From a virus: a stretch of 40,054 nucleotides of DNA. Shown here piece after piece: positions 2,765 to 40,032 of this stretch; the first letter of the stretch is position 1, and every line of letters begins with the position of its first letter. A program made the position numbers and the translations under genes. The notes under the pieces were generated by a model. That model searched no databases and was not told the DNA's origin. It worked only from the letters and a program-made list of their open reading frames with translations. The DNA lies in the IMG/VR virus record IMGVR_UViG_3300045922_000947, positions 1 through 40,054 of that record, one strand, 5' to 3'.

Positions 2765-3069
2765 GAGGCACTCCCCTCATTCCCAGTGACCGTATCCTGG
2801 GCCAGGCCGATCACGTCGCAGAGCCGTTCGTAGGCCGCGAGGGTTGATTGCCAGATGTCCTCGCGATGGCCATAGAGGTGATCGTCCTCGGGCGTTTCCC
2901 ATAACCACGTCCACTGCGCGAGCAGTTTGCGTTCGAGCGCAACCTGTTCCTGCAACGCTGCAGCGAGCGATGCCTGCAGCGCAGCGATCAACGCTCGCCG
3001 TTGTGGTCCCTCCGGCAATTTCCCGAGGTTGGTCAGTAACACGAGTAACGCATCAGTCTGGCGAGTCAC
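2752..3069 (-). CDS. Hypothetical helical protein (105 aa)
   Basis: An almost fully helical, Leu/Ala-rich protein (ALIAALQASLAAALQEQVALERKLL) that may form a coiled coil, with a Trp-rich centre (QWTWLW). The ATG overlaps the stop of the J-domain-like gene as ATGA, so the two are translationally coupled and could act together near the origin. No family is recognised. Confidence 0.75.
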   Translation of the reverse strand: MTRQTDALLVLLTNLGKLPEGPQRRALIAALQASLAAALQEQVALERKLLAQWTWLWETPEDDHLYGHREDIWQSTLAAYERLCDVIGLAQDTVTGNEGSASCPF

Positions 3070-3482
3070 GGCGATTTCCTCTCACGATGCTGGCGAAGTT
3101 CCTGGTACGCCTGCTCGATGCCGGTGAGATCCTCCCGATCGGGGTGAGCGGCAAGGATCTGGTAGGCCGCTTCAACGAGTTCCCAGGGCGCAGTTGGACG
3201 AAGATGCAAAACGGCATAGGGATCCCCATGGGAATCGTGATCACGATCAAACGATTCCCTGTCTCGCCGGTAGAGGATGATCTCGACATCGTGGAACCAG
3301 GAACGGCAGAGCGCGATCGCGTCCTCAGCGCAGCGCTGATGAATCCACCAGACCCGGTCCTCTGCCCGCCATCGCCGCCACCGGCCAGGAATCGTTCGTT
3401 TCAGGTCGGCACAAAACGCGGCGTCGTACGGCGACCGGATGGTCACGCTGCCATCCTCCTGGTACCGAACCAGCACCGTCAT
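3066..3482 (-). CDS. J-domain-like protein beside the putative origin
   Basis: A 138-residue protein. The C-terminal half reads DPYAVLHLRPTAP, then a helix (ELVEAAYQILAAHPDRE) with the HPD tripeptide, then a helix ending in AYQEL. This is the order of a short J domain, which stimulates the ATPase of Hsp70/DnaK. The N-terminal half (about 1-70) is a separate Trp-rich domain that I do not recognise. The start at complement 3480-3482 follows GGGAGAGGG. The frame extends 8 codons upstream into the iteron region, but without a better ribosome site. The gene lies immediately beyond the iterons, so its product may recruit host DnaK to remodel an initiator complex. That role is inference. Confidence 0.65.
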   Translation of the reverse strand: MTVLVRYQEDGSVTIRSPYDAAFCADLKRTIPGRWRRWRAEDRVWWIHQRCAEDAIALCRSWFHDVEIILYRRDRESFDRDHDSHGDPYAVLHLRPTAPWELVEAAYQILAAHPDREDLTGIEQAYQELRQHRERKSP

Positions 3483-3507: not shown

Positions 3508-3771
3508 TGTTGGACATGTTGGACAAATGTTGGACATATTTGTCCAACAGGATATGACCGATATCTCTCGGATGTTTTTTGTGAACGTACACCATGTTGG
3601 ACATGTTGGACATGTTGGACAAAAACGGGGGGTTTTGCAAGCGTTTGCTGTTATAACTCCCAGAAATGTCCAACATGTCCAACACCCTGTACGTTCACAA
3701 AATTTCTGGCGTATCTTTCGGTCAAATCATGTTGGACAAATACGTCCAACATTTGTCCAACATGTCCAACA
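3508..3771. other. Putative replication origin: 13 iterons in a 105-bp-armed inverted repeat
   Basis: Thirteen copies of the 9-mer TGTTGGACA or its complement (one with a single change) occur at 3508, 3517, 3528, 3541(inv), 3595, 3604, 3613, 3667(inv), 3676(inv), 3730, 3743(inv, variant), 3754(inv) and 3763(inv). Several are head-to-tail at 9-bp spacing. The arms 3508-3612 and 3667-3771 are inverted copies of each other, matching at about 87 of 105 positions by hand count, around a 54-bp centre with AAAAC/GTTTT and an AT-rich ATAACT stretch. A second element, TTTTGTGAACGTACA, occurs once per arm. The array runs up to the stop codon of the primase-helicase. This fits an iteron-controlled origin. 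A large operator for a regulator is the alternative. Confidence 0.75.
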
Positions 3772-6102
3772 TCACGCGTCCTCCGCGAGGGCGACGGTGC
3801 CGAATGGGTCAACGACGATACGGCCGTTTTTCACCGCGGCGTCAAATACCCTGGCGAAATCTGTCCCGCTCCAGCGCCGGTTGCTGCACTGGATCTGCAG
3901 ATCGCGCCGGCGCATCGGGCCACGCCGCGACAGGACGGCAACCATCCGTTCCTCAATCAGCGTGTCGATCCGTCCGCCCCAGGTCGGCATCAGGCGAGCC
4001 ACGTGCCGCCACATCCAATCCACGGCCGCGATCGCCGGCTCAAGATGCTGCAGGCCAACCGCTCGCGCTCCGTCAGTGACCGCGTGAATCAGTGCGAGTT
4101 TCTGGATGAGGACCGCGTGCCGGACACGCATCGCGTCCTCCTCCTCTGTTCCCGGTTCTCGCCGGTAATCGTCCTCGTACCAGGCACGCCACCGTTCCTG
4201 GGCACGTGCATCCAGCCGCAGCATGGTTCCGGCATCGTAGGAACGCACCGTGTTCCACAACTCCCGCCAGAGCTGTTCTGCTGCGCGCTGGTCGAGATCA
4301 GGAGGCGATGGCAGCGGACCGCGGGCGTTGCCACAGACATAGAACCAGCGATTGGCGAACCCTGAATGGATATCCTCGTCCGTCATCAGTCCCGCCAGCG
4401 TGCTCGGTTGCGTCCCGGACACGATCGACAAAAACGGGTACCGGGCCTCAATCGGGTTCGCCTTCGTCAAATTCGTCAGCACCGGAGGCGTGTCAAACGC
4501 CTCGATCAACACCGGGATGATCGTTTGCGTCCCCTTCCGTCTCGCCTGGCCGATCAGCCGGCTCAACTCAGTCAGGTAGAGCAACACATTCGGGTTCTCG
4601 CTCAATACCTGAATGAGCCCTTCCGCGCTTCCGACGTCGGTGGCCACGCGCACCTCGGGGTTGACGAGGCGCGTGTCGTTCGCGTTCCAGCCGGTCATAA
4701 ACCGCATGCCGCGTTTGATCGCCGTGTCCTTCCGGCTCCGGCCAGAACGCCCAATCAGGAGGGTGTACAGGTTCGGGAACAGCGGGTCGGCTCCATAGGC
4801 AATGCCAATACGCCGGCCGGTAATGGCACCAGCGATGGTCATGCCCACCCCATAGTGATAGGCACGTGGTGCCTCAGTCGTTGGCTGCATCACTGCCACG
4901 TAGGCCCTGATCCAGCCAGACAGGCAGGCGTCTGGCAGTTCCTCAAATTCAGGAACCTGCTCTGGCTCATCGTCGGCGAGCGCGACACGCTGACCGATAA
5001 CCAGCCGGGGGGATGTCGCCGCCCGGATCGGCGCGAGCCGTGCATCGAGCCACTGGTGAATCTCGACCGGGAGAAGCCGTGCGAGCGCTGTGTACCCGGC
5101 CGTCGCGCCACCCACACGCATGCGCTCGTAGGTCGTCTGTACTGCCCGCAACCGGTCGGCTCGCTCCGGATCGTCTGCGGCGAGCGCATCGACGATCGAC
5201 GTCGCAGTCGCCTCTCCAATCCCTGCTTTCGCCAACAGCCCAGCGATCCCCAGCGCCAGCAGGTGCCGGCTCCCCTCGTGCCAGAATGGCCGGAGCACCT
5301 CGACCATCGCCGTCACATCCTCTGGAGCGATCGGCATCGATGGCGATTCACCGGCAGAGCCATCAACGGATCCCCGGCCGGGAGCCGGATGTGTCGCCTG
5401 GGGCAACGCTGCCTGGACAACCGCCCGCAGGTCCGCAATCGTCACCCAGCCGTCACGCTGCGCTAGCAACACGACCGGGCGCGGTTCGACGCCCTTCAGG
5501 TTCACCGTGCCAGGCAGACGGACAATCCGCGTCCCAGCATCACTCACCTGGGGATCGGCCAGCCGGTATCCCGCGACGGCGTTGATGCGCTCAACAAGGG
5601 TTTTGTGCAACCGTCGTAGTTCGGGGATCGCTTCCGGCGGATGCGATGCGAGCCGGACGCAGGCGCACAGGCCATGGCCGGTATGAATAAGAAGATGCAC
5701 CGGCAGCCCGAGTGACACGAATACCCCCTCAACTGCTGCACGCAGGCCAGCAATGCATGGACCCAGTGCCTCGTTGCTCAGCCGGTAGACCTCAGATTTT
5801 TCTAGGCCCAACCAATCACTCAGATCAAAATCAAATGGCAACCACAGAACCTGTCCCACGTTCTCCGCCCGGCGCCCGCTCCAGCGCGTGATCCGGCCGG
5901 CGTAGAACAATCCCGATGCGATATACAGCTCATCACCATTCAGCTCGCAGTCCGCTACCTCATCAATCCGATAATGGGCGAAGCGGCCGCTACCCTCCGG
6001 TCTGACCAGCACCGGCTCCAGAGGTGAATCACCCATGGGCTCAGGAACGGAGCGACCGTCCAAATCTGGGAGGATGATGCGGACCGCCTCGCCCGTACGC
6101 AT
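3772..6102 (-). CDS. PrimPol/DUF3987-type primase-helicase
   Basis: A 776-residue replication protein. Residues about 80-230 look like an archaeo-eukaryotic primase: the DxD metal motif in LPFDFDLSD (D91, D93), HTGHGLCA (about 140-146) and DAGTRIVRLPGTVN (about 188-201). A linker and a helical primase C-terminal region (about 258-345) follow. A DUF3987-type helicase domain runs from about 390, with P-loop LIGRSGRSRKDT (449-460), Walker B-like VLLYLTEL (about 506-513) and an arginine near R585. The P-loop has Asp directly after Lys, where Ser/Thr is usual. The start overlaps the upstream stop by one base as TAATG. The gene ends at the iteron array. It probably primes and unwinds the phage origin. 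Confidence 0.85.
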   Translation of the reverse strand: MRTGEAVRIILPDLDGRSVPEPMGDSPLEPVLVRPEGSGRFAHYRIDEVADCELNGDELYIASGLFYAGRITRWSGRRAENVGQVLWLPFDFDLSDWLGLEKSEVYRLSNEALGPCIAGLRAAVEGVFVSLGLPVHLLIHTGHGLCACVRLASHPPEAIPELRRLHKTLVERINAVAGYRLADPQVSDAGTRIVRLPGTVNLKGVEPRPVVLLAQRDGWVTIADLRAVVQAALPQATHPAPGRGSVDGSAGESPSMPIAPEDVTAMVEVLRPFWHEGSRHLLALGIAGLLAKAGIGEATATSIVDALAADDPERADRLRAVQTTYERMRVGGATAGYTALARLLPVEIHQWLDARLAPIRAATSPRLVIGQRVALADDEPEQVPEFEELPDACLSGWIRAYVAVMQPTTEAPRAYHYGVGMTIAGAITGRRIGIAYGADPLFPNLYTLLIGRSGRSRKDTAIKRGMRFMTGWNANDTRLVNPEVRVATDVGSAEGLIQVLSENPNVLLYLTELSRLIGQARRKGTQTIIPVLIEAFDTPPVLTNLTKANPIEARYPFLSIVSGTQPSTLAGLMTDEDIHSGFANRWFYVCGNARGPLPSPPDLDQRAAEQLWRELWNTVRSYDAGTMLRLDARAQERWRAWYEDDYRREPGTEEEDAMRVRHAVLIQKLALIHAVTDGARAVGLQHLEPAIAAVDWMWRHVARLMPTWGGRIDTLIEERMVAVLSRRGPMRRRDLQIQCSNRRWSGTDFARVFDAAVKNGRIVVDPFGTVALAEDA

Positions 6103-8410: not shown

Positions 8411-8665
8411 TTATCTGGGTACCCGTGAACTGGGTACCCGATCAGCCGGTTGATGAACCGGCGCAAAAATCTCATCAGCCTCTACACCGAGCAGGGCGGC
8501 GATGCGCTCAGCGAGCTCGCGGCGAATTGCGTAGTGCCCGTGCAGCACGTCGCTGGCGTACTGGCGGCTGACACCGAGCCGTCGCGCCAGCCAGGTAACA
8601 CTGCGTCCCTGCTCCCGCAGGGTGGCGAGGCCGTTGGTTGTTTTGTACCGTCCGTTGCGTTCCAT
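8411..8665 (-). CDS. Cro/CI-type HTH regulator
   Basis: An 84-residue protein with a helix-turn-helix at residues about 22-44 (SVTWLARRLGVSRQYASDVL), then a helical segment ending LLGVEADEIF, the classic Cro/C1 (HTH_3) layout. It binds operator DNA as a dimer. The ATG (complement 8663-8665) has no ribosome-binding site, and the promoter at 8672-8700 would start transcription at or within a base or two of it, so the mRNA should be leaderless. It heads the leftward early operon, so a Cro-like role is as likely as a CI-like one. The last codons overlap a direct repeat of CTGGGTACCCG. Confidence 0.85.
   Translation of the reverse strand: MERNGRYKTTNGLATLREQGRSVTWLARRLGVSRQYASDVLHGHYAIRRELAERIAALLGVEADEIFAPVHQPADRVPSSRVPR
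8417..8439. repeat. Tandem GGGTACCC palindromes
   Basis: The 8-bp palindrome GGGTACCC occurs at 8417-8424 and 8432-8439 within an 11-bp direct repeat (CTGGGTACCCG) at 15-bp spacing, just inside the 3' end of the regulator gene. The repeat gives the protein a duplicated RVP tail. It may be an operator or only a coding duplication. Confidence 0.5.
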
Positions 8666-8671
8666 GCCCGC

Positions 8672-8700
8672 ATCATACACGCTGGCGACGATGTTGTCAA
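8672..8700 (-). promoter_or_regulatory. Leftward early promoter, leaderless
   Basis: On the minus strand, TTGACA (complement 8695-8700), a 17-bp spacer and TATGAT (complement 8672-8677) make a near-consensus sigma-70 promoter. The expected start point, 6-8 bp downstream, falls on the ATG of the HTH regulator at 8665. The spacer ends in AGCGTGT, a word also present at the same place in the divergent promoter. Confidence 0.85.
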
Positions 8701-39363: not shown

Positions 39364-40032
39364 TCACGCTCCCGACGAAGCGCCTACCGAGCGCTCGGCG
39401 AAGGCAAGAATTTCACGCTGTCGCCGGCGCCGCTCCTGAGGAGATAGGCCTGAACGGGAAACACGTTCCTCCAGCGAGTTATAACTGCCGTAGGCGAGCA
39501 ATGCGCGAAGTACCCGGTTGAGTGGCCAGTCATCCGTGACGAGGCCAAGGGCAAATGCAATCGCACGCGTTCCATAGGTCTCGCCGGCCTGAAGAAGCAG
39601 ATCAGGGTCAGCCTGGGCGAGAGCGCGTTCCATTACCCGCCGGCGAGATCTGGTCATCAGGTTCAGGGCGAGATCCCAGCCGAGATAGCCTGGCAATCCG
39701 CCGAGTTGCTTTCCCTCCCACCGTAATTTCAATTGCTCGGCTTTCCCGTAGGCAGCCTGCGCCTCCTCGTAGGAGAGAGGCGAGACGAGCGCGAGCACCA
39801 TGCCACGACCGAGTTCATGCAGTGCAGCGACACGGCGATGCCCGTCAACGAGACGGTAACGGTCGCCCTCAGCGACAACCACAACGGGCATCAGTTGACC
39901 ATTGGTGCGAATCGATTCGACAAATTCCTTCCAGCCATCGGATTTTGGCTTGATGCGTCCCGGTGGATTTGCCCACCAGGTCACAATCTGCGAGAGTGGA
40001 ATGAGATCGAGTTTGAGTGGTGTTCCGTTCAT
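39364..40032 (-). CDS. ParB-like nuclease-domain protein
   Basis: A 222-residue protein. The N-terminal ParB/sulfiredoxin-type domain (about 8-80) shows IPLSQIVTWWANP, FVESIRTNGQLMPVVVV and RYRLVDGHRRVAAL, with the GHRR box at 64-67. The rest is helical (about 85-222) and ends basic, probably a DNA-binding segment. No ParA or parS is found, so classic partition is not supported. Such proteins are common near phage terminase genes and may aid packaging or regulation. GAGAGGAG precedes the ATG, which overlaps the stop of the 26-residue peptide as ATGA when the circle is closed. Confidence 0.85.
   Translation of the reverse strand: MNGTPLKLDLIPLSQIVTWWANPPGRIKPKSDGWKEFVESIRTNGQLMPVVVVAEGDRYRLVDGHRRVAALHELGRGMVLALVSPLSYEEAQAAYGKAEQLKLRWEGKQLGGLPGYLGWDLALNLMTRSRRRVMERALAQADPDLLLQAGETYGTRAIAFALGLVTDDWPLNRVLRALLAYGSYNSLEERVSRSGLSPQERRRRQREILAFAERSVGASSGA

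Follow-up and report, generated by a model that had tools for sequence, protein, structure and literature searches.

The window, by which we mean the whole stretch of 40,054 nucleotides analyzed here, is a virus record containing a complete phage genome of 39.9 kb with a 127-bp terminal repeat. An array of the nonamer TGTTGGACA begins at the stop codon of the primase-helicase gene and lies in the space before the next gene. Its parts and the genes discussed below are listed by position; the individual nonamer sites were located by pattern match.

3066-3482, minus strand: next gene, with an N-terminal domain and a J-domain-like C-terminus bearing an HPD motif (Pfam DnaJ E=0.005, below the cut-off)
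3508-3771, no strand: iteron array and giant palindrome (proposed origin), between the primase-helicase stop and the next gene
3508-3536, plus strand: outer cluster B, three TGTTGGACA (at 3508, 3517 and 3528)
3541-3549, minus strand: outer cluster B, first site, inverted with respect to the other B sites
3564-3571, minus strand: CGAG-type element CCGAGAGA, about 20 bp ahead of outer cluster B, in the same place in relatives
3577-3591, plus strand: 15-mer TTTTGTGAACGTACA of arm B, a perfect match to the arm A copy
3595-3621, plus strand: inner sites, three TGTTGGACA, the third unpaired
3613-3666, no strand: center, 54 bp between 105-bp arms, or 52 unmatched bp if the arms are taken as 107 bp, from the arm pairing
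3629-3640, plus strand: GGGGTTTTGCAA (other strand TTGCAAAACCCC), common to the window center and the spacer of relative L009
3667-3684, minus strand: inner sites, two TGTTGGACA, additional to what most relatives have
3688-3702, minus strand: 15-mer TTTTGTGAACGTACA of arm A, a perfect match to the arm B copy
3730-3738, plus strand: outer cluster A, site 4, inverted
3743-3751, minus strand: outer cluster A, site 3, TGTTGGACG, with one mismatch
3754-3771, minus strand: outer cluster A, sites 1-2, two TGTTGGACA; cluster A reads +++- relative to the primase gene
3772-6102, minus strand: primase-helicase, 776 aa, with AEP-like N-terminal motifs and a DUF3987 helicase-type domain
3775-4005, minus strand: C-terminal winged-helix domain of the primase-helicase, proposed iteron binder (AlphaFold2 pLDDT 80)
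8411-8680: gene for an HTH protein
39364-40032: gene for a ParB-like protein (PHROG 5e-10), adjoining the terminase genes

Thirteen copies of the nonamer lie within the array, twelve of them exact and one with a single mismatch, where 0.04 would be expected per 264 bp. Allowing up to one mismatch, the whole 40-kb window contains 18 matches against 5.8 expected, and each of the five outside the array carries a mismatch. The arms 3508-3612 and 3667-3771 pair about an axis at 3639.5 at 87 of 105 positions (82.9%), compared with a mirror identity of 26% in the center and just beyond the arms. Six mirror pairs account for twelve of the sites, and that at 3613-3621 has no partner. Over the 107-bp arms 54 of 55 iteron positions are matched against 35 of 52 other positions, and thus it is chiefly the sites that maintain the mirror symmetry. 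The CGAG-type element is found in arm B only, in the non-matching part of the palindrome. The preliminary description had reported thirteen 9-mers in two inverted 105-bp arms about a 54-bp center with one further element per arm, and our measurements bear this out, the further element being the 15-mer. As single-strand DNA the array has a predicted fold of -98.3 kcal/mol (z = -16.8). Within the region we found a single promoter-like match, a weak one, and nothing resembling a terminator.

The N-terminal part of the primase-helicase contains the AEP-like motifs DFD, HTGHGLCAC and RLPGTVNLK, identified by inspection, and the protein matches Pfam DUF3987 (5e-20) and a PHROG helicase (2e-22). DUF3987 is a predicted helicase family of mobile elements (PMC5862659). 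When the C-terminal domain was compared with known structures using Foldseek the best matches were mostly winged helices, with a probability of 1.00 and TM ~0.6, none lying below E=0.001. AlphaFold applied to the whole protein gave a pLDDT of 34, and a sequence profile search found no solved structure for primase-helicases of this kind. Of the proteins compared, the window's proposed initiator diverges most, and used as a query it found no relatives among the viral contigs searched. The J-domain-like protein encoded next could be an accessory or initiator-remodeling cofactor. In Rhodococcus phage Mbo2 (L401) a DnaJ-type zinc-finger gene directly follows the primase.

We sought relatives sharing the nonamer by pattern scans of viral contigs for TGTTGGACA; blastn of the window array against named phages gave no match. 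A reversed-pattern control returned at least 120 tandem matches, so that raw tandem counts are meaningless and we have used only clusters and gene context. In five unrelated contigs (L009, L033, L050, L074, which is the same as L352, and L081) clusters of TGTTGGACA lie directly 3' of the stop codon of a prim-pol/helicase gene, and the prim-pols encoded are 18-25% identical to that of the window. In L009, L033 and L050 the gene-proximal cluster is ++- and the distal cluster +--, making them mirror images, with one extra minus site in L009; the clusters of L352 are +++ and ---. The outer clusters of the window, +++- and +---, are mirrored as in L009, L033 and L050, with inner sites in addition. 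Judged from the sequences, the giant palindrome is therefore the A/B layout of a prim-pol/DUF3987 module, enlarged by the inner sites.

The nonamer also occurs in different contexts, and the clostridial, patescibacterial and streptococcal matches were for that reason set aside as members of the module. In rumen Clostridia and Lachnospiraceae (L235, L244, L261, L291, L296, L300 and many more) direct repeats TGTTGGACA-N2-TGTTGGACA are spaced from TATAAT-like boxes as promoter elements would be; many form divergent pairs, and the repeats look like the operator of an unnamed regulator. As such tandems resemble promoter-type sites, the nonamer alone is not diagnostic. Nine streptococcal phages (L058, L059, L060, L079, L087, L088, L102, L103 and L105) have arrays in which TTGGACA-A is followed by two or three units of TGTCCAACA NN with a period of 11 bp. 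These arrays sit inside the gene of a replication protein or replisome organizer (annotated so in L109, phage phi3396, EF207558), so that the same nonamer occurs with a different initiator family. Complex arrays of mixed orientation are present in two patescibacterial MAGs (Parcubacteria and Kaiserbacteria; L258:5674-5768 and L263:4978-5056). Other tandems with a 12-bp period lie in unrelated contexts (L054:6009-6077, L067, L070, L091 and L092), that of L067 in an integrase-like neighborhood. Among the matches listed, occurrences of the nonamer in the literature were unrelated and of primer type.

A wider family was gathered using the L050 protein as a bridge, together with named phages. In some 20 further actinophages and prophages the prim-pol/DUF3987 gene is directly followed by this layout, built from other iteron sequences. 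The order is an iteron cluster ++-, usually an AT-rich spacer, and a mirrored cluster +--. Arrays of this kind are present at most of the additional prim-pol loci, those of Reyja, prophiGD17-1 (in L112) and L358 included, with the first cluster about +15 to +45 from the stop codon and the start of the second at about +130 to +290. The iterons are CGTGGACA in Gordonia phage Tarzan, CCGTGGACA in TinyDot, CCTGGAAA in Reyja, CGTGGCCA in Dulem virus 32, and GGTGTCAG and GGTGGAGG in M. abscessus prophage types, with TGTCGGCCA, GGTTGGACA, AGGTGGACA, AGGTGGCCA, ATGTGGACA, GTGTGGACC, TGTCGGGC, TGTCGGCC and AGTAGGACG elsewhere in the family. The arrays of L366 and L371 are degenerate, and none was found behind the prim-pol gene in L367, L370, L401 (Mbo2) or L402 (Gordonia phage Jumbo). 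Surveys of 397 actinobacterial genomes yielded few homologues (in 6 and 5 genomes), one of them, L358, with a clear array. It had been suggested that the array be sought in relatives, and we find it in the same place and layout behind the prim-pol/DUF3987 genes of about 25 phages.

Some of these arrays overlap annotated reading frames. In prophiGD17-1 (L112:3341-3606) the iterons overlap hypothetical genes 38 and 39, which are probably not genes. In Arthrobacter phage Peas (L113:5562-5790) AGTGACACAACTT-type repeats lie behind the prim-pol, within annotated gp61; the helicase part of this prim-pol aligns poorly with the DUF3987 types. The layout may thus not be confined to DUF3987-type helicases, and a number of short annotated ORFs may in fact be origin DNA.

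Closely related phages with different iterons point to the likely binder. The prim-pols of L352, L353 and L354 are 77-78% identical and their arrays can be aligned. The arrays differ at base 4 of the iteron, where 5-6 of the 6 sites carry T in one phage, G in another and C in the third (TGTTGGACA, TGTGGGACA and TGTCGGACA), and the C-terminal domains are near-identical save for one helix (KRSITQAVAGRD, KREIAHAVRTKD and KRDIQRAVRNRD), with the segments SITQAVAGRD, EIAHAVRTKD and DIQRAVRNRD. We made eight comparisons of related phages whose iterons differ. In these, 2-7 of the 12 helix residues are changed, against 4-26% for the remainder of the region compared, and Fisher's test gives p <0.05 in seven of the eight. 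The three comparisons within L352-L354 are interdependent, and the contrast shrinks when the helix is set against only the other parts of the C-terminal domain. In each of five control pairs, whose iterons were verified to be unchanged, 0 of the 12 helix residues differ, as would be expected anyway for some of them, because these pairs are closer relatives, 2-3% different elsewhere. The pair L110/L365, kept outside the five verified controls, also has 0 of 12.

We also scanned the protein alignment (426 columns) in 8-column windows, with a correction for overall protein distance, and the ten windows that correlate best are all in the winged-helix helix. For the best of them the single-window p=0.0016 and the scan-wide permutation p=0.14, and we therefore regard the scan as supportive but not decisive. 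A threonine two residues ahead of RDR accompanies GGCCA in three separate lineages (L364, L384 and L396) and not GGACA, for which A, S, N or R takes that position. In phages with TGTTGGACA the helix follows the pattern T-x-[AS]-hyd-[AS]-[GS]-RDR. The window helix, QIQCSNRRW, fits this only in part, with SNRRW where the relatives have [AS][GS]RDR, and for this reason the binder in the window is assigned by homology and position. On these sequence comparisons we infer that the iterons are bound by the adjacent primase-helicase via its C-terminal winged helix.

Further elements are shared between members of the module. A CGAG-type element lies ahead of cluster B in 13 of 19 loci against a shuffle mean of 3.9, for a pattern picked after viewing the sequences; like most members, the window has it (3564-3571). 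TTGCAAAACCCC is common to the window center and the spacer of L009, and in L009 a perfect DnaA box adjoins the first iteron. Together these three features favor replication over transcription. Many members have an AT-rich spacer with TATATA. The center of the window is less AT-rich than that of most members, its AT-richest 40 bp (only 26 of 40) lying in an outer cluster and not in the center.

We conclude that the array is very probably the iteron replication origin of the phage, placed 3' of its initiator gene, with the primase-helicase (3772-6102) as the protein that binds the nonamers through its winged helix. An origin with inverted initiator assemblies and selection on the sites had been put forward in the preliminary description, which counted the primase-helicase among the possible binders. 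These points, with the primase-helicase as initiator, gain indirect backing from the recurrence in about 25 phages, from the co-variation of iteron and winged helix, and from the earlier proposal of an origin in the homologous region of cluster O mycobacteriophages (PMC4351075). A start in both directions, which the preliminary description also considered possible, gains no support from the GC skew. The skew is uninformative: after detrending, its cumulative curve peaks and dips at 10.7 and 28.5 kb and has no feature at 3.6 kb.

The array might instead be a transcription operator, at which a phage repressor such as the HTH protein or a host regulator controls the J-domain gene or the replication operon. 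It does occupy the gap ahead of the next gene, and pairs of TGTTGGACA lie at promoter spacing in Clostridia. However, no site with up to one mismatch occurs near the HTH gene, the one promoter-like match is weak, and neither six to 13 sites in two mirrored clusters round a spacer, placed after rather than before the prim-pol, nor co-variation with the winged helix of the prim-pol would be expected for a repressor. We regard this as very unlikely, although the iteron binder could also autoregulate, as it does in iteron plasmids. The co-variation in relatives speaks equally against a parS-like partition centromere bound by the ParB-like protein. Such a protein domain is encoded in the window and iteron arrays can serve as centromeres, but its gene adjoins those of the terminase and no ParA was recognized, making this scarcely credible.

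The great stability of the predicted fold (z = -16.8) raises a further alternative, in which the initiator recognizes an extruded stem-loop of the long palindrome, as proposed for pRN1 and phage BIP-1; the pRN1 origin is likewise 3' of a gene encoding prim-pol, helicase and winged helix (PMC4234260). Such an origin would lack iterons and conserve structure. In the window, the mismatches between the arms fall almost entirely outside the iterons, while the relatives mirror the sites and not the intervening sequence, and their concerted iteron changes indicate sequence recognition. We consider a pure stem-loop origin highly implausible, since it is the sequence that is conserved and not the pairing.

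Iteron origins that lie 3' of the gene for their initiator helicase are already known as a kind. In SaPI Rep/ori and SCCmec Cch2/ori the iterons lie directly downstream of the helicase gene and are bound by its C-terminal domain, and two hexamers have been proposed (PMC7581432). The window shares with SaPI the position of the iterons, immediately after the gene of the helicase. It differs in being a full phage, in having mirrored iteron clusters, and in its DUF3987-type helicase, which is joined to an AEP primase. Satellite phage P4, whose replication also uses crr, likewise combines primase, helicase and C-terminal winged helix in the single polypeptide alpha. In the account of alpha given in PMC4234260 (citing Yeo 2002) the winged helix binds the origin repeats, and the primase is of the bacterial (Toprim) type, whereas the window protein is AEP-like. 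ORF904 of pRN1 has an AEP prim-pol, helicase and winged helix with the origin just 3' of the gene (PMC4234260), as in the window; its helicase is SF3 and its origin a stem-loop without iterons.

A further parallel is the cluster O mycobacteriophage Catdawg. It has TGTTGTACA arrays in the same layout round a TATATA-rich element, and a related prim-pol with an RDR-type winged helix. The arrays are about 3 kb upstream of the prim-pol, not directly 3' of it, and the iteron differs by one base. Cresawn et al. describe an AT-rich element with flanking repeats between genes 12 and 13 of Corndog as a plausible origin, and the part of their paper dealing with it proposes no binder (PMC4351075). Our equation of the Catdawg region with that element rests on position and AT-richness. 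We found no description of the DUF3987/AEP phage family, the mirrored layout or the helix-iteron co-variation in the openly licensed literature, cluster O being a partial precedent.

Such an origin would most likely operate in the manner of SaPI Rep/ori, SCCmec Cch2, P4 alpha and pRN1 ORF904. The primase-helicase would bind the nonamers through its C-terminal winged helix, and the two clusters, pointing in opposite directions, would lead to two helicase rings assembled face to face. The DNA between the rings would melt, and the fused AEP primase could then start synthesis at the opened DNA.

DUF3987 primase-helicases are common in phages, and we found no description of their origin or initiation mechanism in the openly licensed literature. 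The module supplies a specific origin and initiator domain to study, and its sister phages with switched iterons are natural 'mutants', so that exchanging domains or iterons would put origin recognition to a direct test. More tentatively, and at somewhat less than an even chance, these modules may make up a widespread class of phage origins that has gone almost undescribed, their iterons evolving fast and in step with one recognition helix of the primase-helicase. There would then be a readable winged-helix-to-iteron code, and phages would fall into replication-specificity groups comparable to the incompatibility groups of plasmids. The window would represent a palindromic form in which the sites are doubled and two helicases are loaded facing each other. 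The module also provides a way to find origins in many uncharacterized actinophages.
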